A DNA stretch of 64,000 nt from Bifidobacterium asteroides. Its GTDB lineage: Bacteria; Actinomycetota; Actinomycetes; Actinomycetales; Bifidobacteriaceae. Shown here piece after piece: positions 7,134 through 40,429 of the stretch. The stretch is from NCBI RefSeq assembly GCF_019469425.1, contig NZ_CP048272.1, positions 992,001-1,056,000 of the forward strand. Reading direction: 5' to 3'. Made by a program: the position numbers and the translations under genes. Position 1 is the first letter of the stretch. Each line of letters starts with the position of its first letter. The notes beneath the pieces are model-generated. The model did no database searches. It was not told where the DNA came from and saw only the letters and a list, made by a program, of their open reading frames with translations.

Positions 7134-8276
7134 CTAGTAATTGATGGTCTGTCCTGGGTAAATCAGGTCGGGGTTGGCGATGCCGTTGGCCGACGCCAAT
7201 GCTTGGACGGAAGTGCCCAGGGATTGGGCGATGCCCGAAAGGGTGTCGCCAGATTGCACGGTGTACGAGTGTCCGCTGTCCTGGGCTGCGCCACCTCCGA
7301 GCGACAGCACCTGGCCGGGGTAGATGAGGTCGGGGTTGGCGATGCCGTTGGCCGATGCGATGGCCTGGACCGAAGTGCCGTAGCGGAACGCGATGGAGCT
7401 CAGGTTGTCACCAGGCTGCACCGTGTAGGAGCCAGCTGGTGCAGCGGCCGCCGGGGCCGCGGAATCGATGCGCAGCACCTGGCCCGGGTAAATCCTGTTG
7501 GCGTCGGCGATTCTGTTGATTTCTACCAAATGCTGCCAGGAAGTGCCGTACGCCGAGGCGATGCCCGAAAGAGTGTCGCCGGATTGCACGGTGTAGGTGT
7601 CGCCACCAGAAACATTGGTGTCAGGCGCTACTGGAACGGTGATGTTGGGCGCTGGCTGCTGGGAGCCATCGAAGGCCGCATACGCCAGCCAGTCCTCGCG
7701 GGAGCCATAGAACTTGTTGAGATCCAGCGGTCCGTTGTACCCGCTTAGCCGGCCGTTGGAGGAGTACTGGCGGATGGTGCACCCGTACGCGTTCTCGTTC
7801 CACGGGGCGTCCTGGTAGCCGGTGCCATCCATTGATGCGTACTGGGCGACCCACAGGCCGCAATCGTGGCTCTGGCCGACCTGGGCGATTTGGCCGTACA
7901 CGGACGCTGACGCGTAGATGAGCGGCTTGATGCCGGTCAGACGGATGATTTCCGCCACGACCGCGTCCAGATAGCCCACATTGCCCCAAGCGTTATTGGA
8001 GCCCGACTCCCAATCGACCGCCAGAACGGCCTTGTGCAGCCATCCACGGACCTGGTCAACGAAGAACTTGGCCTCGGCCTGAGCGCCGGAGCCGCGGACG
8101 TACATGTATACGCCAGCGAGCTTGCCGCAGTCCAAAGCCTGGTCGACGGCGCGGGCGCAGTCCGGGTTGACGTACCCAGTGCCCTCGGTCGCTTTGGCGA
8201 TGATGAATTCAGCTGGCACCGAGCTCACATCGATGCCAGACTGCCAGCTGGAGATATCTATGCCATTAAGAGCCAT
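7134..8276 (-). CDS. Endolysin, GH25 muramidase with three LysM domains
   Basis: This enzyme cuts the MurNAc-GlcNAc bond of peptidoglycan for host lysis. Residues 1-200 form a GH25 lysozyme domain: GIDISSWQ at the start, YVRGSG, the catalytic LAVDWESG, and WVAQY. Three LysM domains follow, each with YTVQxGDxLSxIA and an IYPGQ ending, joined by Ala/Pro linkers; they bind cell-wall GlcNAc. ATG 8276 is chosen over an upstream start because GGAGAGGGGCC precedes it. No signal peptide is visible, consistent with release through the holin. The two C-terminal LysM units are very similar to each other, suggesting recent duplication. Confidence 0.93.
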
Positions 8277-8308
8277 GACCGGCCCCTCTCCGCCCGTTTC
8301 CGGGCATG

Positions 8309-8335
8309 AAAAAAGCCGCCCCACGATGGGACGGC
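8309..8335 (-). terminator. Terminator between tail/accessory genes and the endolysin
   Basis: On the minus strand a 9-bp stem (GCCGTCCCA with TGGGGCGGC, loop TCG) is followed by six U and then C. It lies between the 46-residue membrane protein gene and the endolysin. This implies partial read-through or a separate promoter for the lysis cassette. Confidence 0.8.
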
Positions 8336-20281: not shown

Positions 20282-20866
20282 TCATTGGTCCGCATAGGCG
20301 GCGGCCAGCAGCTGGGCGGGGCTCATACGGCCCCAGTCGCCGCCAGCGGTCGGCGGGTTGGCAGGCGGCAGCTTGGGCTTGGTGCCCTGCTGCTTCTCGG
20401 TGATCTCTCCGATGGCCTCCTGGAGCTTCTGCGCGTTCGCCTTGAGCGCGTCCCCCTCGCCGGCCAGCAGGGCCACGACCTCCCGGCTCAGCCCGGTGTC
20501 ATCGGCGATTGAGCCGAGCAGCAGCTCGCGTTCATGGGCCGCCTTGAGCTCGTCGCGTTCCTTGGCCGCCTGCTCGGCCTGTTCGCGCAACTTATCAATC
20601 TCGCTCTTTTTCGCCTCTTCGATCTCGTCAAGCTTGGCCGCTTTCGACTTGATTTCGTCGTAGTCGGCGTACCTGGCCTCGATCTCGGCGGCGCGCTTGG
20701 CGAGCGCTCGGCTGAATTCCTTGGACTCGTCTGACCGGCCGGCCTTGGGGTCGGCGGGTTTCGGGGCCGAGGGTTTCGGCTCGGTCGCGGGTGTGCCTCC
20801 GGATGCTGGATTGGGGTCGGGGTTGGTGACGCAGCGGATACGGCGGGGCACGGGATGGTTGTGCAT
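20282..20866 (-). CDS. Capsid scaffolding-like protein
   Basis: The 194-residue protein has a Pro/Ala/Lys-rich N-terminus and a long uninterrupted coiled coil with EIKSKAAKLDEIEEAKKSEI and on through REQAEQAAKERDELKAA. A short C-terminal helix MSPAQLLAAAYAD ends it. This long-coil design and the position directly before the major capsid gene are those of scaffolding proteins. ATG 20866 has AAGGAGAAACCCC in front. The upstream neighbour is the phage tRNA-Tyr. Confidence 0.75.
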   Translation of the reverse strand: MHNHPVPRRIRCVTNPDPNPASGGTPATEPKPSAPKPADPKAGRSDESKEFSRALAKRAAEIEARYADYDEIKSKAAKLDEIEEAKKSEIDKLREQAEQAAKERDELKAAHERELLLGSIADDTGLSREVVALLAGEGDALKANAQKLQEAIGEITEKQQGTKPKLPPANPPTAGGDWGRMSPAQLLAAAYADQ

Positions 20867-20948
20867 GGGGTTTCTCCTTGGATTGGTCGGACGCACGGTT
20901 AGCGACGCGGCGTGCGGGGTCCGCGAAAGATGGTGCTGTGAGAGGATC

Positions 20949-21033
20949 TGGTGGCGGGTGCAGGATTCGAACCTGCGTAGCCTGAGGCGGCCGAGTTACA
21001 GTCGGCTCCCGTTGTCCTCTTGGGTAACCCGCC
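20949..21033 (-). tRNA. Phage-encoded tRNA-Tyr (GTA)
   Basis: The minus-strand sequence folds as a class II tRNA: acceptor GGCGGGT with ACCCGCC, anticodon loop CTGTAAC carrying GTA, an extra-long variable arm of the tyrosine type, T arm with GGTTCGAATCC. The discriminator A and a genome-encoded CCA occupy 20952-20949. The chromosomal tRNA-Ala in this window lacks CCA, so the encoded CCA marks a foreign origin. It sits inside the late operon between the MuF-nuclease gene and the scaffold gene. Confidence 0.93.
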
Positions 21034-21116
21034 GGGGTGTGGTAGCTTGGATAGTGCCAGGAGGCCCTCCGGGGTAGTGAAATAACCTACGGAAACCAGG
21101 GGATTGTCTCCTGGCT

Positions 21117-22421
21117 CTACTTTTTCAGTGTGACCTCCTTCAGGCCGTTGTTGCTGAGAATCCATAGTCTCTTGATGGGTGTTTGCGTGCGCTGGTTATA
21201 GAGCGCAAGCTGGTTGATGAGCTTGTCTGGCACTTCGGTGTCGCCTAGGTCGATGATGAAGGAGTCCTTGGTGACGCCTTTTCTGGCTGCCTTGCTGGCG
21301 GCTTCGGAGATGCGTTTGGCGATGTGCGAGTATTTGGCGGTTTGCATGGACTTCAGCTCGTAGTCGCCGTCCTGCTCGTTCCAGTGGAAGTCGTTGGTGG
21401 GCAAGAACTTTCGTCTGTCCTTGGGGATCCATCGGTAGTGGTTGCCGAGTTTGGCGAAGCGTTCGAGGAATACGATTTCGTGCATCTCCAGCACGTCCTT
21501 TGATGTGGGGATGCCGAGTTTTCGCTGGCGGGCGTCCCAGACGCTTTGGGGATGCGGTTTTTCGTTTTGCAGGGAGAGGATGCGCCGTTCGTCCTTCCAG
21601 GCGGTACGTGTCCTATCCGTGGCGACCCCATCCTTGAGCTGCTCGGGGTACATGGTGCGCATGCGTGCCAGGCGTTCGCGGTAGTCGCCGCTGCCTGTGG
21701 AGTCCCACATGCGGCGGTACCGGTCTGGGTTGAAGCCGGCGAGGTGCTGCTTGCCCCAGCTGGGCACTATGCGGCAGTCGCAGTGAGGGTGGTAGGAGTT
21801 TCCTAGACCGGCTGACTCCTCGCTGAGGTAGGCGAAGCCGCGGGAGGCGAGCATGAGGCAGAAGGCGCAGGTGGTGGGGCCGGCCGGCACTCTAGCCCAT
21901 CTGGGTTTGGTTGGGTCCAGTCTCATGTTGCGTTGCAGTGTCAGGCGTTCCGATGCTGCGATCATTTCGGCGATGAACTGCTGTGCGTCATCCAGGTTCG
22001 ACAGGTCGGGCCACAGGTCCTCGATGCGTTTGCGGGCCCGTGACTGGCGTTCGGCGACCTCCTGGTAGGTAAGCCCGGCGAAGTCCGAATCGTTGAATCC
22101 GCCCTGGACCTGCCATAGGGTGCGGTCGGGGTCGATGAGGGCAGTGTGGTCGAACGTGGGGAAGTCGGCATCTCCGTATTCGGCCCATAGGGTGCGCAGG
22201 GTGTCATAGTAGTCGTTGGCCATCTGGCTGGCGTCTCTGGCGTACTGGGCTATCAGGTCTTTCGCGTCCATGGGGTCGCGTGAGAGGACCACCTCCAGTT
22301 CGTCGGCCGCCGTCTCGCGGAGGGCATCGAGATTTCTGCGGTGGTCCTTGTGGGCCTGGTCAAGCAGCCGTTGGAGCTCCCGCATGCGGTCCGGGCTTGG
22401 ATGCAGGTCGTTGAGACTCAT
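21117..22421 (-). CDS. MuF-type minor head protein with C-terminal CdiA-type nuclease toxin domain
   Basis: Residues 1-240 form an actinophage MuF/VG15 head protein: helical N-terminus, TTCAFCLMLASRG and the ligand cluster YHPHCDCRIVP. A linker leads to about residues 309-434, which match the CdiA C-terminal nuclease pattern: LEMHEIVFLERFAKLGNHY, then YELKSMQTAK with the acid and lysine E355-x-K357, the strand DSFIIDLGD, and IKRLWILSNNGLKEVTL at the end. Such domains are PD-(D/E)xK-like tRNA nucleases. ATG 22421, 6 bases after GGAGG, is preferred. No immunity gene is adjacent; a tRNA gene follows instead. The toxin call is from motif resemblance. Confidence 0.82.
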   Translation of the reverse strand: MSLNDLHPSPDRMRELQRLLDQAHKDHRRNLDALRETAADELEVVLSRDPMDAKDLIAQYARDASQMANDYYDTLRTLWAEYGDADFPTFDHTALIDPDRTLWQVQGGFNDSDFAGLTYQEVAERQSRARKRIEDLWPDLSNLDDAQQFIAEMIAASERLTLQRNMRLDPTKPRWARVPAGPTTCAFCLMLASRGFAYLSEESAGLGNSYHPHCDCRIVPSWGKQHLAGFNPDRYRRMWDSTGSGDYRERLARMRTMYPEQLKDGVATDRTRTAWKDERRILSLQNEKPHPQSVWDARQRKLGIPTSKDVLEMHEIVFLERFAKLGNHYRWIPKDRRKFLPTNDFHWNEQDGDYELKSMQTAKYSHIAKRISEAASKAARKGVTKDSFIIDLGDTEVPDKLINQLALYNQRTQTPIKRLWILSNNGLKEVTLKK

Positions 22422-23811
22422 CATCCACCTCCGGTCCATGCAGCATGGTCGCTTTCAGCTGGTCGATGCGTTCCTGAGTTCTTGCGCGCTGCTGCTCGCC
22501 GCGCAGGGTGCGGCGCTGGCGGTCGGACAGGTCGAGCATGTCGTAGGTCACGTCGCTGTCGGCCGGAAGGATGCCGGCCTGCACGAGTTTCACGGCGGCG
22601 TCTGCTGCCGCGGCCCGGCTCGGTGTGGCGGGGTTGCGCCACTGGCAGGAGATCGCCTGGGCGGTTCCGTCGGGGCCGGCCAGGTTCTGGGCCCTTGCGA
22701 TGATGCGCTGCCAGGCGGGGCCGAACCAGGACTGGCATTGCTCGGCAGTCAGGCACAGCTCCTTCTGGGCCTTATCGATTGCCTCGGCGGAGGAGGGGTT
22801 GTCGGTGAGCACGCCCATCGCGTCTGGCGGCAGGCTGGTGGCGGAGGCGAACATTGTGGCTGTCTGACGCAGCTGCGCGCTGTGAGGCTCGAAGCTGTAC
22901 TGCGGGAACTGACCGACGGTGGGCTGCTCCCCGTCGACATCGCTGGGGATGGCCAGCACCTGGTCCAGCATGATCTTCCAGTTGGGAATCCTGCCCCCAT
23001 CCTCATCGGTGAACATGTCCTCGCTGACTCCGATAAAGTAACGGGGCGGGACGGAATACAGCTCGGCCTGCATCTCGGAACGCAGAAAGGTGCGCACGGC
23101 GCTGTCGGTCAGGCTCATGACGGTGCGGCTGATGCGGCTGCGGCCGAAGGGGCGTTTGGCGTCGGGCTTGTAGGCCAGCAGTTCGCAGGGCAGGCGCTGG
23201 CCGGCGTGGTCTGTGCGCGAGTACACCTGCCAGACAGGGCCGGACTGCACGATGCCGACGGTGTGCTCGGTGTCCATCAGGTACATGCCTTGCAGGAGTT
23301 TGCCGTCGTCGGACACGTCGAGCAGGAGGGCCGCAGCCAGGCCGTGCAGGCGCTTGTCCCACACGCCGGTGGCCACGTCCGCGGTGAACTCCTGGATGAT
23401 GGCTTCGGGCTCGCCGATGGAGGTGTCGCCCTGTAGGGCAGCCAGGAAGCTGCATGAGTGCACGAGCGCGTCGGTATGCGCGGACTGGGCGGTCTGCAGC
23501 AGGCCGTTGGCGTCCATCAGGTCGGACACCTGCCTTGACAGCTCGGAGCCGTCCTGGGTGGTGACCCCATCCAGGACCACACGGTTGGCGAGCGCTTCGA
23601 CGGCTTTCTCGGGCCAGCCCACGACGATGTCGATGTCTTTGGCGATGGGCGGCAGGCTGTAGCCTATGTCCTTGAGTTCGTTGCGCCCGTCGTAGTATTT
23701 GGTGCGGATCAGGTTGCGGGCGCGTTTTTCAAGCAGGCGGCGCAGGAGCCTGCGGTAGAGGGTCTGCTCAGTGTTGGTCAGGCCGCTGATGGTCTGAGGC
23801 GGGATGATCAT
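22360..23811 (-). CDS. Portal protein (SPP1/actinophage type)
   Basis: The 483-residue product builds the dodecameric DNA channel. It begins MIIPPQTISGLTNTEQ and has the family's YYDGRNELKDIGYSLPP near the N-terminus and WPEKAVEALANRV. Typical core segments are FGRSRISRTVMSLTDSAVRT and SEMQAELYSVPPRYFIG. The clip and wing region ends with LTDNPSSAEAIDKAQKELC. ATG 23811 overlaps the terminase stop as ATGA. The C-terminus is rich in Arg and Gln and overlaps the MuF gene by about 60 bases. Confidence 0.9.
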   Translation of the reverse strand: MIIPPQTISGLTNTEQTLYRRLLRRLLEKRARNLIRTKYYDGRNELKDIGYSLPPIAKDIDIVVGWPEKAVEALANRVVLDGVTTQDGSELSRQVSDLMDANGLLQTAQSAHTDALVHSCSFLAALQGDTSIGEPEAIIQEFTADVATGVWDKRLHGLAAALLLDVSDDGKLLQGMYLMDTEHTVGIVQSGPVWQVYSRTDHAGQRLPCELLAYKPDAKRPFGRSRISRTVMSLTDSAVRTFLRSEMQAELYSVPPRYFIGVSEDMFTDEDGGRIPNWKIMLDQVLAIPSDVDGEQPTVGQFPQYSFEPHSAQLRQTATMFASATSLPPDAMGVLTDNPSSAEAIDKAQKELCLTAEQCQSWFGPAWQRIIARAQNLAGPDGTAQAISCQWRNPATPSRAAAADAAVKLVQAGILPADSDVTYDMLDLSDRQRRTLRGEQQRARTQERIDQLKATMLHGPEVDDESQRPASKPGPHAGAPTAA

Positions 23812-25854: not shown

Positions 25855-26202
25855 TCACCAGTCGCCGCTGGTCTCCAGCGGTAACGATGTCGACCTGATG
25901 TCCTCGGCACGGCCGGTCTGTTGAAGCTGTCTGATGCGCTCCCGTGCCCATTCCACGGTGTGGTTGGATCTGATGCGGTTGCACCAGCGATGGGCCAGGA
26001 AGCAGTTGGAGAAGTCGGTGGCCGACCCGCCACGACTGACCGGTACCAGCTCGTCGACCTCGGGACTGCCTGGCAGGCCCGCCGGCAGGGTCTTGTCGAC
26101 CGGCTGCCCGCACAGGTGGCAGGTGTCGTAGGCCGCCTTGACCCTGGCCGTCACCTGGTCACGCCGCCACCCGTTGGACCGACGGTTATTGCGACTGCCC
26201 AT
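25855..26202 (-). CDS. HNH endonuclease near the terminase
   Basis: HNH nucleases next to terminase assist cos-end cutting or packaging in many long-tailed phages. The 115-residue product has CHLCGQPV zinc ligands, DELVPVSRGGSA with the first catalytic block, FSNCFLAHRWCNRIR with the second histidine and a Cys ligand. A basic N-terminus (RNNRRSNGWRRDQ) should bind DNA. It overlaps the preceding 60-residue gene by 17 bases. ATG 26202 has no strong ribosome binding site, consistent with coupling. Confidence 0.88.
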   Translation of the reverse strand: MGSRNNRRSNGWRRDQVTARVKAAYDTCHLCGQPVDKTLPAGLPGSPEVDELVPVSRGGSATDFSNCFLAHRWCNRIRSNHTVEWARERIRQLQQTGRAEDIRSTSLPLETSGDW

Positions 26203-26916: not shown

Positions 26917-27525
26917 TTAAATATCTTTGTCGTTTTGTCCGTTCAAGAATGAATCAACATCATTGAGCTGTACATATGCTGAGTAGAGAGATGGCAGTGC
27001 AATAAGAAGACTCATGGCGACATGGGTGCTAATTCCAATTGCGATGACATTTCCTATTGCTTCAATTATGGGATTGTTTAACAGATTTAACGCTTTGGTG
27101 AGTATTACAACGATTGAAGCTATGATTGAACTGTATGCACCTGCCAGCAAGTGTGCTGATGCCGTGTCGAGCAGCCAACGTTTACGGGCATGGTCATAAG
27201 CTCCCTGAGATTGCTTGCTTACAGAATTTCTCCAACTTGCCAACAGGCTGAATGCGGTTATCAAAGCGGCCGAGAGAATAGCAAGTGAAGCCAGAAGAGA
27301 ATCGTCGATAGAGAGCAGATTCTGCTGTTGCATATCTGATTTATCCGAGGAAATAATAAATGCATAAACACAGGAACTTATAAATGCCACTACAGGAGGT
27401 AGCACATATATAAGGATAAAGCTGAACGTAACATGGCGTCTTTTTTCTGGCGAATCATGGTTGTCGAATCGGTAGGTTGCTCTCCATTGTGCTCGGTAGA
27501 TGCCAAAAGGCGCGAGCTCCGACAT
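26917..27525 (-). CDS. Four-helix membrane protein, second gene of the AT-rich cargo pair
   Basis: The 202-residue product has four predicted membrane helices: about 33-58, 77-98, 123-146 and 156-182, with short loops and both ends probably cytoplasmic. A conserved-looking basic stretch YDHARKRWLLDTASAHLL lies before helix 3. ATG 27525 has AAGGTGACATAAGA upstream. It follows the 335-residue gene after 14 bases, so both form one unit. The DNA is markedly AT-rich compared with the phage genes around it. It could be the membrane effector of a defence or exclusion system; the family is unknown to me. Confidence 0.7.
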   Translation of the reverse strand: MSELAPFGIYRAQWRATYRFDNHDSPEKRRHVTFSFILIYVLPPVVAFISSCVYAFIISSDKSDMQQQNLLSIDDSLLASLAILSAALITAFSLLASWRNSVSKQSQGAYDHARKRWLLDTASAHLLAGAYSSIIASIVVILTKALNLLNNPIIEAIGNVIAIGISTHVAMSLLIALPSLYSAYVQLNDVDSFLNGQNDKDI

Positions 27526-27539
27526 TCTTATGTCACCTT

Positions 27540-28547
27540 TCAGACGATAGTTGGAATTGCCACTCCATCAGCCTGGCCGATTTGCTGTAAATGGGTATCA
27601 GCTTCAGCCCATAACTGGCCAATTGTTGCTTGATCACCTAAAGGGTAGACAAATAACTGAGCTATGGCAAGAGCTGAAACTGTTGTCTGTTTATCGTTCT
27701 CGGTAAACGTCACCGAGCCATCATCCCAATTGACATTAGCCGCCCCCTGCCATCGGGGGAACACGGCAGCTATATCGTTTATTGCCTGTGGGTGTGCGGT
27801 ATTGCGGACAGCAGCAGCAGCCAACGTTCGAAGAATCCTCAATCCGCGCCTTTGAGCTTGTATGGAGGGATTCGAATATTGCATAACTACTTTTTCCTGG
27901 TGAGCTATCCCTGTTGCTCCGGGGTCCCTTTTCACAAGGGTAAAAGCCGTCACTTCAGCGTTGCCGACAGCATTGTTAAACCGTTGGGCATCAGCTTCAG
28001 GAACTGGGATAAAACGGTACCAATCAGAAGCTCTCACTATGTCGTTTCCGCTAAGGCGGTGAGCTGCCAGCTTTAGATAAAACGAAATATAGGCAAATAA
28101 GAGAGAGCAGGCCTCTGTTTTTGCTCTTACCTGTGCAGCCACATAACAACAATTGAGTCCTTGCGGGAATGCTATGCGCAGTAAAAGCCGTCTTACAGTG
28201 GCATCGTTATGAATATTTGCAAGATTGCCATTCCGTACCAGAAAGTCGAGATCACCATACTTTCCTTTATAAATTCCCACTTCAACGACTTCGGGCGAGA
28301 TTGGACGAATGGTTTTGATAAGAAAGCAGGGATCGCCAGGTTGAGCTGTGTGGTTCGTATTAAATGAGTTTGCGTCTAATCTCATTTTGGGATATGTGTT
28401 AAGAATGTGACCTTTGAGGTTGTTCATAGTGTCTATAACAACTCGTTGAAATGATCGATCGCCAAGAGCTATGCCATCCGCTAAAGGTTCACGAGCATTA
28501 TTTTTGTGCACTTGCACTTTAAATAACCGAAAAGCAACATTTGCCAT
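27540..28547 (-). CDS. Unknown cytosolic protein, first gene of the AT-rich cargo pair
   Basis: The 335 residues show no motif I can name. A beta-rich N-terminal region (ANVAFRLFKVQVHKNN, then KTIRPISPEVVEVGIYKG and DLDFLVRNG) precedes an alpha-helical middle with TVRRLLLRIAFPQGLN and a C-terminal part with VNWDDGSVTFTENDKQTTV. ATG 28547 has AAGGA eight bases upstream. The codon use is AT-rich, unlike the neighbours. There is no signal peptide or membrane helix. Paired with a four-helix membrane protein, it suggests a sensor plus membrane effector, but this is only an inference from layout. Confidence 0.65.
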   Translation of the reverse strand: MANVAFRLFKVQVHKNNAREPLADGIALGDRSFQRVVIDTMNNLKGHILNTYPKMRLDANSFNTNHTAQPGDPCFLIKTIRPISPEVVEVGIYKGKYGDLDFLVRNGNLANIHNDATVRRLLLRIAFPQGLNCCYVAAQVRAKTEACSLLFAYISFYLKLAAHRLSGNDIVRASDWYRFIPVPEADAQRFNNAVGNAEVTAFTLVKRDPGATGIAHQEKVVMQYSNPSIQAQRRGLRILRTLAAAAVRNTAHPQAINDIAAVFPRWQGAANVNWDDGSVTFTENDKQTTVSALAIAQLFVYPLGDQATIGQLWAEADTHLQQIGQADGVAIPTIV

Positions 28548-30344: not shown

Positions 30345-30691
30345 TGCTGGTCGATTCCTTCCAGGCTGCTACGCAGGTCGGCGAGCATGACCACTTCGCG
30401 TGATTTGAGGGGTTTGGAGAGCATGGTCTCGATGGCCAGGCCCGCGTCCAGGGTCCGCTGGGCCAGACCGGCGGTGTCGTAGACCACTTCAGTGATCGGG
30501 TCGATGTCGCCCCAGCGTTGCAGGTGCTCCTGCTTGGTCTTGGAGTCCATGGCCCTGCGCACCAGGGCCAGGTAGGAGGCAGAGGCCTTGAGGATGCCCT
30601 GCGCCTTGGGCAGCAGCTCCACCAGCATCTCCGGGGTGGCCTCGTCCGGGACCAGCGCGTCCACGCCCTTGTTCCTCCTCGTCTCACTCAT
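30341..30691 (-). CDS. Hypothetical helical phage early protein
   Basis: The 116-residue product is acidic and helical, with EATPEMLVELLPKAQGILKA, SYLALVRRAMDSKTKQE and AGLAQRTLDAGLAI. ATG 30691 has GAAGGAGTCAATC and overlaps the HNH gene by 8 bases. No family recognised; it belongs to the early operon of DNA metabolism genes. Confidence 0.6.
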   Translation of the reverse strand: MSETRRNKGVDALVPDEATPEMLVELLPKAQGILKASASYLALVRRAMDSKTKQEHLQRWGDIDPITEVVYDTAGLAQRTLDAGLAIETMLSKPLKSREVVMLADLRSSLEGIDQQ

Positions 30692-31067
30692 GATTGACTC
30701 CTTCCGTGTCCGTCGGTATCTGTACCGGTGTCCATCCGCCTTGGTCGTCCAGGAGCACCCAGCCATGCTGGCGGGTCAGGACAGGCACCATCTCGGGATG
30801 GTCCTGCCAGGCGTGCACCAGCCAGCCCTTCTCGTATGCCTCGGCCGTAGCACTCCCGTGCACGTCGCCATGGCAGCCGCTGTCCCCGGACCCGCACAAC
30901 AGAATCAGGTTGGACGCCTCATGCAGGCCGGGCCACCGGTGCGAACGCATCCTGCGATGGTGCCGGTTCATCCAGGTGGAGCCCAAGGGCTTGCCGCAAC
31001 GCACGCACCGCCAGTTGTCGCGCCGGTCCACCAGGCGTTTGACCTGTTCGCTGGGTTGGTTGCTCAA
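30684..31067 (-). CDS. HNH endonuclease (replication region)
   Basis: The 127-residue product has the zinc and active-site pattern RCVRCGKPLG, the HHR block in MNRHHRRMRSHRWPG, and NLILLCGSGDSGCHGDVHG with the final ligands. This is a compact HNH nuclease, possibly for recombination or nicking. I place the start at TTG 31067 because GGGAGGAGCAGGC gives a perfect site; longer upstream frames overlap the exonuclease region without a site. It overlaps the next gene by 8 bases. Confidence 0.82.
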   Translation of the reverse strand: MSNQPSEQVKRLVDRRDNWRCVRCGKPLGSTWMNRHHRRMRSHRWPGLHEASNLILLCGSGDSGCHGDVHGSATAEAYEKGWLVHAWQDHPEMVPVLTRQHGWVLLDDQGGWTPVQIPTDTEGVNHE

Positions 31068-31116
31068 GCCTGCTCCTCCCACATCTTCCACAACCACACA
31101 TGGGAACAGCGCTGGC

Positions 31117-31842
31117 TCATAACCGGCCCCCATTCCACAGGTCATCCGGCGGATAGTGGCCTCCCTGCGGCATCTCCGCCTCGGAATCACGGCTGGGCTT
31201 GTCAAACGGGTGCTCAGTCTGAAAACCATGGACCTCGCTTCCACTCAAAGCCTCCGCCAGCGGCGAGCGCCCACCGCCAGCGGCTTTCAGGCCGTCCAGC
31301 ATCATCTGGTACTCTGCGATGTCCCGGTCCAGGCAATGAGACGTGCGGTGATCGGTGGCGGGTATGCGCTCGCGGATGCGGTGTGCGAGCGCCGGGCGGA
31401 TGGTATTGAGGAGGATGCGCAGGCTGGATACGTCCATGTGTTGGTGGCTTGTGTTTTCGAGCAGGCCTGGCATGGTTTGGTCCAGCCATTTGGTGTCGAA
31501 GTGGACGCTTGACCCTGCCGGATGCAGGATGGCTTGTTTGGTTTGGCGGCGGAGCCAGGCTGCGAACATGCGTTGGGCTGAGGCTTGCTTGAGTCCGGTT
31601 CGGCTTTCTTCCAGCAGCCTGTTGTCCCTGTGCGTGCGCTGTGCCCATGCCGACGGCCCGTCTGTGTGGATGCGTCGGGGGGCGATGACTGTGTGCAGGC
31701 TTGTTTTCACTTGCTTGGCCTGCAGGTCCGTCACCCGCATCTCCATCTCCAGGAGCAGATCGGAGACCGGGTTCAGGCCGGTGGTTTCCACGTCGATCCA
31801 TAGCAGTCGGTGTGGCAGGTTGCTTCGATGGTTGCCGCTCAT
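31117..31842 (-). CDS. DEDD 3'-5' exonuclease / oligoribonuclease-like
   Basis: The 241 residues match the oligoribonuclease branch of DEDDh exonucleases: LLWIDVETTGLNP with the DxE pair, SSVHFDTKWLDQTMPGLL with the second Asp, and HRTSHCLDRDIAEY with the final His and Asp. It may degrade host oligonucleotides or proofread during phage replication. ATG 31842 has AAGGAGATCGC and overlaps the replication gene's stop as ATGA. The C-terminal tail is polar and unique. Confidence 0.8.
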   Translation of the reverse strand: MSGNHRSNLPHRLLWIDVETTGLNPVSDLLLEMEMRVTDLQAKQVKTSLHTVIAPRRIHTDGPSAWAQRTHRDNRLLEESRTGLKQASAQRMFAAWLRRQTKQAILHPAGSSVHFDTKWLDQTMPGLLENTSHQHMDVSSLRILLNTIRPALAHRIRERIPATDHRTSHCLDRDIAEYQMMLDGLKAAGGGRSPLAEALSGSEVHGFQTEHPFDKPSRDSEAEMPQGGHYPPDDLWNGGRL

Positions 31843-39068: not shown

Positions 39069-39135
39069 GGTGAGAACAAATCAATGCGAAATGCCTCACG
39101 CTTCATTCTAGCGTCGGGGCGGAATGGAGCGAACC

Positions 39136-40308
39136 ATGGCGAGTGTGAGCGCGTACGAGACGGCCAAGGGCCGGCGGTACATGGTCCGGTATCGGACCCC
39201 GGACCACAGGCCCACCATCAAGCGGGGGTTCACGCGCAAGAAGGACGCGGAGCTGTTCGCAGCCAAACTGGAGACACAGCTCAACGACGGCACTTTCGTG
39301 GATGTCTCCAAAGGGCGCAGGACGGTGGGGGAGCTGGCACCCGCGTGGCTGGCGAAGAAGAGGATAGCGGTCAAGGCCAGCTACTACTACACGCTTGAGA
39401 CGGCGTGGAAAGTGCATGTGGAGCCCAGGTGGGCGAAACGCTCCATCCGCTCCATCAAACGCAGCGAGATACAGCGGTGGGTGGCCGGCCTGTCCACGGG
39501 CGACGAGGGCCGGCCGAAGAGCGCCAGCGTCGTCATCCGGGCATACGGCATCCTCGCCGGCATACTGGACGATGCGAAGGCTGACAGGCTGCTCGCCGAG
39601 AATCCGGCCCGCGGGGTGACCCTGCCGAAGCGCCGGCGCAAACCCCACATTTACCTCACTGAGCGGCAGTTGTACGCCCTTTCGGACGCCTGCCTGATAC
39701 CAGGCAGGAACAGGAACGCCGACCATGAGCGCTTCCAGCGCTCAGTGCTGGTGCTCGTGCTCGGGACCACCGGCATGAGGTGGGGCGAGTGCATCGGCAT
39801 GCGCATAGGCCTGGTGGACTTCCGCCGGCACCGCATGCAGGTCAGGGTGTCCGCAACGGAAGTCGACGGCAGGATGGAGGTGGACGTGCCCAAGACCGGC
39901 AGCGAGCGCAGCGTGGTGTTCCCCGCCGTCCTCGACGACAGGCTGCACCGGCTGATCGGCGGGCGCGGTACTGACGAGCTGTTGTTCACGGGGAGCTTCC
40001 ATGGCTACGTGAAGTCGGTGTCGCCGAAGGATGGCGGCAAGTGGTTCGCCCGTGCGTGCGATGCGGCCGGGTTGGAGCGGATGACCATCCATGACCTGCG
40101 GCACACGGCGGCCAGCCTGATGGTCAAGAGCGGGGCGAACGTGAAGGCCATCCAGCGGCAGCTGGGGCACACGTCGGCCGCGATGACCCTGGATGTGTAT
40201 GCGGATCTGTTCGACGAGGACCTGGATTCGGTGGGGGAGTCGATGAACGAGCTGCTGCTGCAAAGTGCGCTCAAAGTGCGCTCAAAATCTGTTTCGCAGG
40301 TTGCGTGA
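39136..40308 (+). CDS. Tyrosine integrase
   Basis: It integrates the phage at the tRNA-Ala 3' end. An AP2-like arm-binding N-terminus (TAKGRRYMVRYRTPDHRP, then GFTRKKDAELFA) and a core-binding helical domain precede the catalytic domain. Catalytic residues are R215 in TTGMRWGE, H319 and R322 in MTIHDLRHTAASLM, the histidine of QLGHTSAAM, and Y355 in LDVYADLF. ATG 39136 has GGAGCGAACC; ATG 39124 is possible. The last codons contain the right arm-type repeat. The gene ends 48 bases from attR, the usual arrangement. Confidence 0.93.
   Translation: MASVSAYETAKGRRYMVRYRTPDHRPTIKRGFTRKKDAELFAAKLETQLNDGTFVDVSKGRRTVGELAPAWLAKKRIAVKASYYYTLETAWKVHVEPRWAKRSIRSIKRSEIQRWVAGLSTGDEGRPKSASVVIRAYGILAGILDDAKADRLLAENPARGVTLPKRRRKPHIYLTERQLYALSDACLIPGRNRNADHERFQRSVLVLVLGTTGMRWGECIGMRIGLVDFRRHRMQVRVSATEVDGRMEVDVPKTGSERSVVFPAVLDDRLHRLIGGRGTDELLFTGSFHGYVKSVSPKDGGKWFARACDAAGLERMTIHDLRHTAASLMVKSGANVKAIQRQLGHTSAAMTLDVYADLFDEDLDSVGESMNELLLQSALKVRSKSVSQVA
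40266..40288. repeat. Right arm-type repeat, two TGCGCTCAAA units
   Basis: Exact copy of 6251-6273 in the same orientation. Here it lies inside the last codons of the integrase gene, 68 bases from the attR core. Two 10-bp units a base apart fit an arm-binding site. Confidence 0.6.
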
Positions 40309-40325
40309 TGTGTCCTGAACGTTGA

Positions 40326-40351
40326 AATCCCGGCCCTTTCGGACCGGGATT
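40326..40351 (-). terminator. Phage-supplied hairpin downstream of the tRNA-Ala gene
   Basis: On the minus strand a stem of about 11 bp with one mismatch (AATCCCGGTCC with GGGCCGGGATT, loop GAAA) lies five bases beyond the tRNA 3' end, with a short TTTC tail. It resembles the displaced original terminator at 6064-6095 in its AATCCCG core, so the phage seems to bring a replacement 3'-end signal for the tRNA. Confidence 0.6.
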
Positions 40352-40355
40352 AATC

Positions 40356-40379
40356 GTGGAGCTAGGGGGATTCGAACCC
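40356..40379. repeat. attR core
   Basis: The 24 bases equal attL (6100-6123). They restore the tRNA-Ala T arm and acceptor strand at this end, so integration leaves the tRNA intact. Confidence 0.88.
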
Positions 40380-40429
40380 CCGACCTTCTCCATGCCATGG
40401 AGACGCGCTACCAGCTGCGCCATAGCCCC
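40357..40429 (-). tRNA. tRNA-Ala (GGC)
   Basis: The 73-base minus-strand sequence folds with acceptor GGGGCTA against TAGCTCC including the G3-U70 pair that identifies alanine tRNAs. The anticodon loop is ATGGCAT with GGC, the D arm is normal and the T arm GGGGGTTCGAATCCCCC. The discriminator is A and CCA is not encoded. It is the prophage integration target. Confidence 0.95.

Follow-up and report, generated by a model that had tools for sequence, protein, structure and literature searches.

Polymorphic toxins of temperate phages combine a MuF head domain with a variable C-terminal toxin domain and are encoded in the prophage head operon, with a small open reading frame (ORF) behind 89.4% of the toxin genes (Jamet et al. 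2017, PMC5576092). The partners of MuF toxins have so far been taken to be small immunity proteins. Also known are CdiA-CT nucleases, RNA antitoxins and phage tRNAs that evade tRNases. Here we describe a MuF–toxin fusion gene from a prophage of Bifidobacterium asteroides, located in a 64,000-nt stretch of contig NZ_CP048272.1 (positions 992,001 to 1,056,000; hereafter the window), which resembles the MuF polymorphic toxins in its head domain, its C-terminal toxin and its place in the head operon, but lacks the usual small immunity ORF and is accompanied by an antisense RNA gene and a tRNA-Tyr. We propose with moderate confidence that it encodes a MuF-delivered, probably tRNA-cleaving toxin whose cognate antitoxin, or immunity determinant, is the RNA, in a manner resembling type III toxin–antitoxin systems, with the tRNA-Tyr as a less certain second safeguard. 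The observations on which this proposal builds are the domain architecture, the fold match, the anatomy and covariation of the RNA gene, its co-occurrence with CdiA_C-like toxin domains, the existence of orphan RNA copies and the fact that the RNA follows the toxin domain more closely than the head domain.

The fusion gene lies on the minus strand: the plus-strand frame of 21117-22421 is interrupted by stops, while the minus-strand ORF 21117-22439 spans 440 aa and ends with a TAG at 21119-21117. The most likely start is the ATG at 22421, yielding a 434-aa protein that begins MSLNDLH. VG15 (PF25310) matches aa 16-246 of the 440-aa ORF with an E-value of 2.9e-38, i.e. the N-terminal half of the fusion protein, which bears out the assignment of a MuF/VG15 head protein in the sequence-only reading of this gene. 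MuF polymorphic toxins are characterised by a C-terminal extension of 100 aa or more that includes a toxin-type domain; here about 190 aa follow VG15. Since phrog_13257 spans nearly the whole fusion protein (E 1.1e-93), the combination of MuF and toxin represents a family and not an accident. The order of the surrounding genes is terminase – portal – MuF-toxin – scaffold – major head protein – tape measure, and thus the gene occupies the head-operon position in a prophage that is typical of MuF polymorphic toxins.

The C-terminal domain was modelled by AlphaFold with a pLDDT of 94.3 and a pTM of 0.89. A structural search, which had been suggested together with the original assignment of a CdiA-type nuclease domain, gave a divided answer: Foldseek alone found no match to the modelled domain at E ≤ 0.001, whereas VIA-align returned 4g6v_A as top match (Z 10.0, rmsd 3.4, 121 of 132 residues; the next row has Z 6.2). 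This entry is the CdiA-CT/CdiI complex of Burkholderia pseudomallei 1026b, 13% identical to the window domain. The sequence profile of the toxin domain retrieved nothing convincing from the PDB, and CdiA_C (PF18451) scores 12.6-15.1 bits (12.6 over aa 351-432), below the cut-off of 26.6, so that by score the domain falls outside PF18451; the CdiA-type assignment is supported by the modelled fold. CdiA-CT of 1026b is a PD-(D/E)XK tRNase that cuts the acceptor stem of tRNA-Ala, while a related toxin, from strain E479, cleaves within the T-loop (reviewed in PMC9086364). Because the fold match is to this tRNase, we read the C-terminal domain as a putative nuclease, probably a tRNase. The predicted ExK at 355-357 and the IIDLGD motif, which begins at 389, were located as described in the 434-aa numbering, with HEIVFLERF beginning at 314. 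Aligned with its relatives, the domain shares E315, E320, N343-D344, E355, K357, K385 and D391 across 14 sequences; the acidic residues and the ExK (E315, E320, D344, E355, K357) are kept in all 14, as judged from the alignment and without superposition on E187, D214, D223 and K242 of the 1026b toxin. Toxins of contact-dependent inhibition differ from the window locus in having the protein CdiI as immunity and in being delivered by way of the outer membrane.

The claim that no immunity gene follows the toxin gene stands for protein genes, the next ORF found being the scaffold gene at +250 with no small immunity ORF before it, but is not supported beyond them: the 220-nt gap between the two genes holds a small RNA gene on the opposite strand, immediately behind the stop codon, and then the tRNA-Tyr. 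The RNA folds into a hairpin with a long closing stem, P1, and the U-rich tail behind it ends at the stop codon of the toxin gene. We placed this gene in context with a census of 89 MuF loci of Bifidobacteriaceae (designated by L numbers), of which 26 carry CdiA_C-like C-terminal domains of several divergent families and 63 carry others; L009, whose toxin is of the window's own family (CTD1) but whose MuF frame is broken, was counted among the 63. Where a tRNA follows, the hairpin lies ahead of it; homologues of the toxin domain that stand alone, and MuF fusions lacking a tRNA, likewise have one behind them. In the 30 nt before the hairpin, an extended -10 element (TGnTAnnnT) stands on the antisense strand in 18 of 26 such loci versus none on the sense strand (0.6 expected; at most 4 loci in 2000 shuffles).

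The RNA is conserved as a structure. In an alignment of nine sequences 98% of cells are paired and 10 of 17 pairs show double changes; the covariation score is 0.668 compared with 0.282 for shuffled alignments and at most 0.150 for slid versions, although the slide control is partly favoured by the derivation of the structure from the same nine sequences, and the weight rests on the double changes. Counted by strand, there are 30 G-U cells versus 2 A-C in the antisense orientation, and the reverse in the other. The covariance model R2 matches 21058-21114 with 66.5 bits, the window copy being one of the sequences from which the model was built. No Rfam match to the RNA was found, which does not exclude a new family. 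R2 is not a reliable detector of divergent RNA types or of the RNAs of other toxin families, and therefore the presence of these rests on reading and folding; a DNA pattern scan found no further RNAs.

The census ties the RNA to one class of toxin. An antisense extended -10 lies within 125 nt of the stop codon in 19 of 26 CdiA_C-like loci but in 1 of 63 others, and a tRNA lies within 260 nt in 18 of 26 versus 0 of 63 (Fisher p about 1e-12 in both comparisons, values that are too small given near-identical loci such as L124, L125 and L136, while the contrast is plain all the same). Small ORFs show the opposite distribution: an ORF of at least 50 aa starts within 60 nt behind 34 of 49 long MuF genes of the other class versus 7 of 25 CdiA_C-like ones, and those seven are mostly of atypical length and run through the hairpin or the tRNA. 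Each CdiA_C-like toxin family has a different hairpin at the same position. By hhalign, CTD2 and CTD3 are linked at 99.6% and CTD1 and CTD3 at 74%, with CTD1 and CTD2 unlinked. PF18451 exceeds its cut-off in 3 of 6 representatives; scores of 60.6, 66.0 and 32.8 bits are reached by RNA-paired MuF domains other than that of the window.

The toxin domain also occurs in other Bifidobacteriaceae, in IMG/VR contigs and in Gordonia phage GMA4 (31% identity), and in most of these MuF fusions a tRNA-Tyr then follows. No match was found among plasmids, and single-protein scans of viral and genome contigs yielded no confirmed relative (query A1 was too diverse for scanning; query A2 worked). Outside phages, PF18451 toxins (L194, L195) appear, read by eye only, to be followed by ordinary ORFs, which means that the domain does not generally come with the RNA. 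Four stand-alone homologues of 153-165 aa without MuF (L012, L013, L017 and L018; genomes G167 and G169), each with an antisense promoter and a hairpin behind it, look like toxin–antitoxin modules outside the phage head genes. In Siphoviridae sp. ctl617 (L221, 1501-3152) the domain fused to MuF is an ADP-ribosyltransferase (PF03496, E 7.6e-21); a 79-aa ORF follows the gene, and no tRNA is annotated there.

In several respects the RNA behaves as an immunity determinant would. Within CTD1, RNA distance correlates with that of the toxin domain after control for the head domain (partial r 0.545, p 5e-4), and not clearly with that of the head domain (0.166, p 0.07). L033 and L200 are only 18.6% identical in the toxin domain and 56% in the RNA, but 87% in the tRNA and the following sequence, from which we infer that toxin and RNA move together and the tRNA stays. 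The RNA also occurs alone: in nine Bifidobacteriaceae genomes without a toxin-domain match the RNA model finds copies, at 11 loci, none of which has a toxin domain. One of these orphans (L068) keeps the apparent last codons of a toxin domain. The MuF protein of L070 has a domain resembling EndoU (24.4 bits, cut-off 25.3); behind it come a 90-aa ORF and then the orphan RNA and the tRNA-Tyr, as would be expected had a new toxin module replaced an earlier one whose immunity stayed in place. A second RNA copy is found in L024, L037, L014 and L005, accompanied in L024 and L037 by a stub of the toxin 3′ end; orphan modules are known from other polymorphic toxin loci, and these second copies resemble them. 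L193:5719-5968 (G025:C4) holds two tandem orphan copies, each with a good -10 element and with no toxin domain nearby.

By analogy with what is proposed for MuF proteins, the head protein with its CdiA-CT-type nuclease would be made late and carried in the virion. The lysogen would transcribe the hairpin RNA from its own opposite-strand promoter, and the RNA would bind and block the cognate nuclease, as happens in type III toxin–antitoxin systems. During lytic growth, late transcripts that cross the RNA gene from the opposite direction may reduce the amount of free RNA; a weaker element of the scheme is that the tRNA-Tyr of the late operon might provide an intact version of the attacked tRNA, or one that is cleaved less readily. 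The proposed likeness to the type III systems ToxIN, CptIN, TenpIN and AbiQ lies in a structured RNA that blocks a nuclease. Their organisation is different: antitoxin RNA repeats stand upstream on the same strand, followed by a terminator and then the toxin gene, whereas the window RNA lies downstream on the opposite strand, with a predicted promoter of its own, in one or two copies, without an Rfam match and next to a nuclease of a different fold. More tentatively, phage-borne polymorphic toxins of the CdiA_C superfamily may use cognate small RNAs and not proteins as immunity, with RNAs that diversify along with the toxins and remain as orphans when a toxin is swapped, and with a phage tRNA as a backup that replaces the destroyed one.

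Several observations weigh against immunity by RNA. The promoters are consensus matches, and the strict element is missing in 7 of the 26 CdiA_C-like loci; only 4 of 11 orphans keep it, though this is above the 0.4 expected, with a plain -10 in two more. Covariation is weaker in the CTD2 hairpins: 90% of cells are paired and the score is 0.259 versus 0.151, but double-changed pairs are no more numerous than in shuffles. The census loci are related to one another. The tRNA also stands behind EndoU-like and other MuF toxins (L070, L119 and phage PMBT6). Finally, the layout of the locus fits another kind of RNA control equally well.

That control, the main rival, would be of the type I kind: the convergent RNA would be a cis-antisense regulator that silences the toxin mRNA by pairing with its 3′ end, as RatA and SR4 do, and does not bind the protein. 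The two genes are convergent, the tail of the RNA overlaps the toxin stop codon and, should the mRNA read through, the RNA is complementary to the 3′ untranslated region in the way of RatA. The pair txpA/RatA is likewise joined via its 3′ ends, and such pairs sit in Bacillus subtilis prophages and the skin element (PMC4147584). TxpA/RatA and BsrG/SR4 thus share with the window a small RNA that runs convergently into a prophage toxin gene and overlaps its 3′ end, but their toxins are small hydrophobic peptides and not a 434-aa head–nuclease fusion, and the window RNA is conserved in structure and occurs without a toxin. Pairing with the opposite strand does not need a conserved internal structure with double changes; there are toxin-free orphans with predicted promoters, and one orphan stands behind another toxin; and silencing of the mRNA would not stop an injected protein. 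These three points speak against type I-like control as the whole story, and we judge it unlikely. We consider it less probable again that the hairpin serves the late operon only as a convergent terminator, an insulator or a processing site and does not act as an antitoxin: P1 and the U-rich tail do resemble an intrinsic terminator on the antisense strand, but a promoter-like element directly precedes the hairpin, which is confined to one toxin class, differs in sequence from family to family and occurs in orphan form.

The tRNA calls for a separate account. Since it sits mostly behind CdiA_C-like toxins, its distribution suggests that tRNA-Tyr may be the target of the toxin. Phage copies are 61-78% identical to the tRNA-Tyr of their own host, and most have the GUA anticodon and a normal loop. 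Changes relative to the host tRNA are limited to some phage copies: odd anticodon loops in the window (CTGTAAC), L190 (TTGTAAC), L144 (CCGTACA) and PMBT6 (CCGTAGA), a GCA anticodon in L110, odd T-loops in L004 and L006 and a 31-39 mismatch in L008 and L034. The sequence downstream of the toxin in L197 reads, by eye and without ARAGORN, as tRNA-Trp. Phage tRNAs that evade tRNases are established (PMC10264068, PMC11555353); the present locus is similar in that a phage tRNA, in some copies with changed loops, lies near a presumed tRNase, and dissimilar in that this tRNase belongs to the phage itself. This parallel, the odd loops and the co-occurrence of tRNA and toxin, GMA4 included, could mean that the tRNA and not the small RNA protects, as a decoy or as a cleavage-resistant replacement for the host tRNA-Tyr. 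We regard this as quite improbable: many toxin loci have the hairpin and no tRNA, the anticodon loop is normal in most copies, and the tRNA is retained when the toxin is swapped. Least probable is an unopposed toxin acting on competitors or, late, on the host: no immunity ORF follows, but a conserved RNA gene occupies the immunity position.

Codon compensation by the phage tRNA is unlikely, since its anticodon is also present in the host. That the tRNA goes strictly with CdiA_C toxins was rejected on the evidence of PMBT6, L070 and L119, the latter two being 'other' MuF loci in which the tRNA-Tyr lies further downstream. In Bifidobacterium phage PMBT6 (L220, 1501-3256) a MuF protein with an apparently EndoU-like C-terminus (by eye, with no Pfam match) is followed by an overlapping 105-aa ORF and then the tRNA-Tyr. 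Two different phage contigs, L029 and L035, break off within the D-arm of the tRNA-Tyr, and 16 nt at their ends are identical, CCCGTTGTCTAAATGA; this reflects either an insertion or an effect of assembly.

Searches of open full-text papers, with subscription papers and preprints outside their scope, turned up no earlier description of a polymorphic toxin that has an RNA in its immunity position. A recurrent, covarying RNA in that position, behind one toxin superfamily and with toxin-free orphans, points to RNA immunity in phage–bacteria conflicts and, if this is true, to an RNA-immunity branch of polymorphic toxin systems. The locus yields a directly testable toxin–RNA pair and suggests that phage tRNAs may have an additional function, namely protection against a toxin encoded by the phage itself. 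Further pairs may be sought by inspecting the opposite strand wherever an immunity protein is missing.

Table. Features of the MuF–toxin locus and its flanking genes, in window coordinates.
Feature	Position	Strand	Basis
MuF–toxin fusion gene, 434 aa	21117..22421	-	ORF list, PF25310, phrog_13257; ORF open to ATG 22439
VG15/MuF head domain	21702..22394	-	PF25310 E 2.9e-38
CdiA-CT-like nuclease domain (predicted), C-terminal, aa 271-434	21120..21611	-	model pLDDT 94.3; 4g6v_A Z 10.0; alignment of relatives
E355-L356-K357, putative PD-(D/E)xK residues	21351..21359	-	E and K invariant in 14 relatives
U-rich, terminator-like tail of RNA gene	21116..21126	+	sequence and folding; overlaps toxin stop codon
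Structured small RNA gene, ~60 nt, unannotated, candidate immunity RNA, convergent with toxin gene	21056..21115	+	covariation, R2 match, folding
Extended -10 TGGTAGCTT of antisense RNA gene	21040..21048	+	weak in this copy; position conserved across loci
tRNA-Tyr(GUA) with CCA, 78% identical to host tRNA-Tyr, loop CTGTAAC	20949..21033	-	ARAGORN
Portal protein (context)	22360..23808	-	phrog_104 E 4.9e-104
Head scaffolding protein (context)	20282..20896	-	phrog_3760 E 5.5e-19

The prophage is bounded on one side by a plus-strand integrase gene abutting tRNA-Ala(GGC) (window 39124-40429). This tRNA is the likely attachment site, and with the integrase next to it the tRNA-Tyr was ruled out in that role. 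An endolysin gene (GH25 and LysM, 7134-8324) lies towards the opposite end. Between the HNH/terminase genes and the early region, two minus-strand genes (26917-28547) encode proteins of 335 and 202 aa with apparent membrane segments; neither has a PHROG, Pfam or PADLOC match, and they are possibly an uncharacterised moron or defence pair. Two HNH proteins (PF01844) are encoded on the minus strand at 25855-26202 and 30684-31244, the first adjoining the terminase genes and the second scoring below the cut-off.
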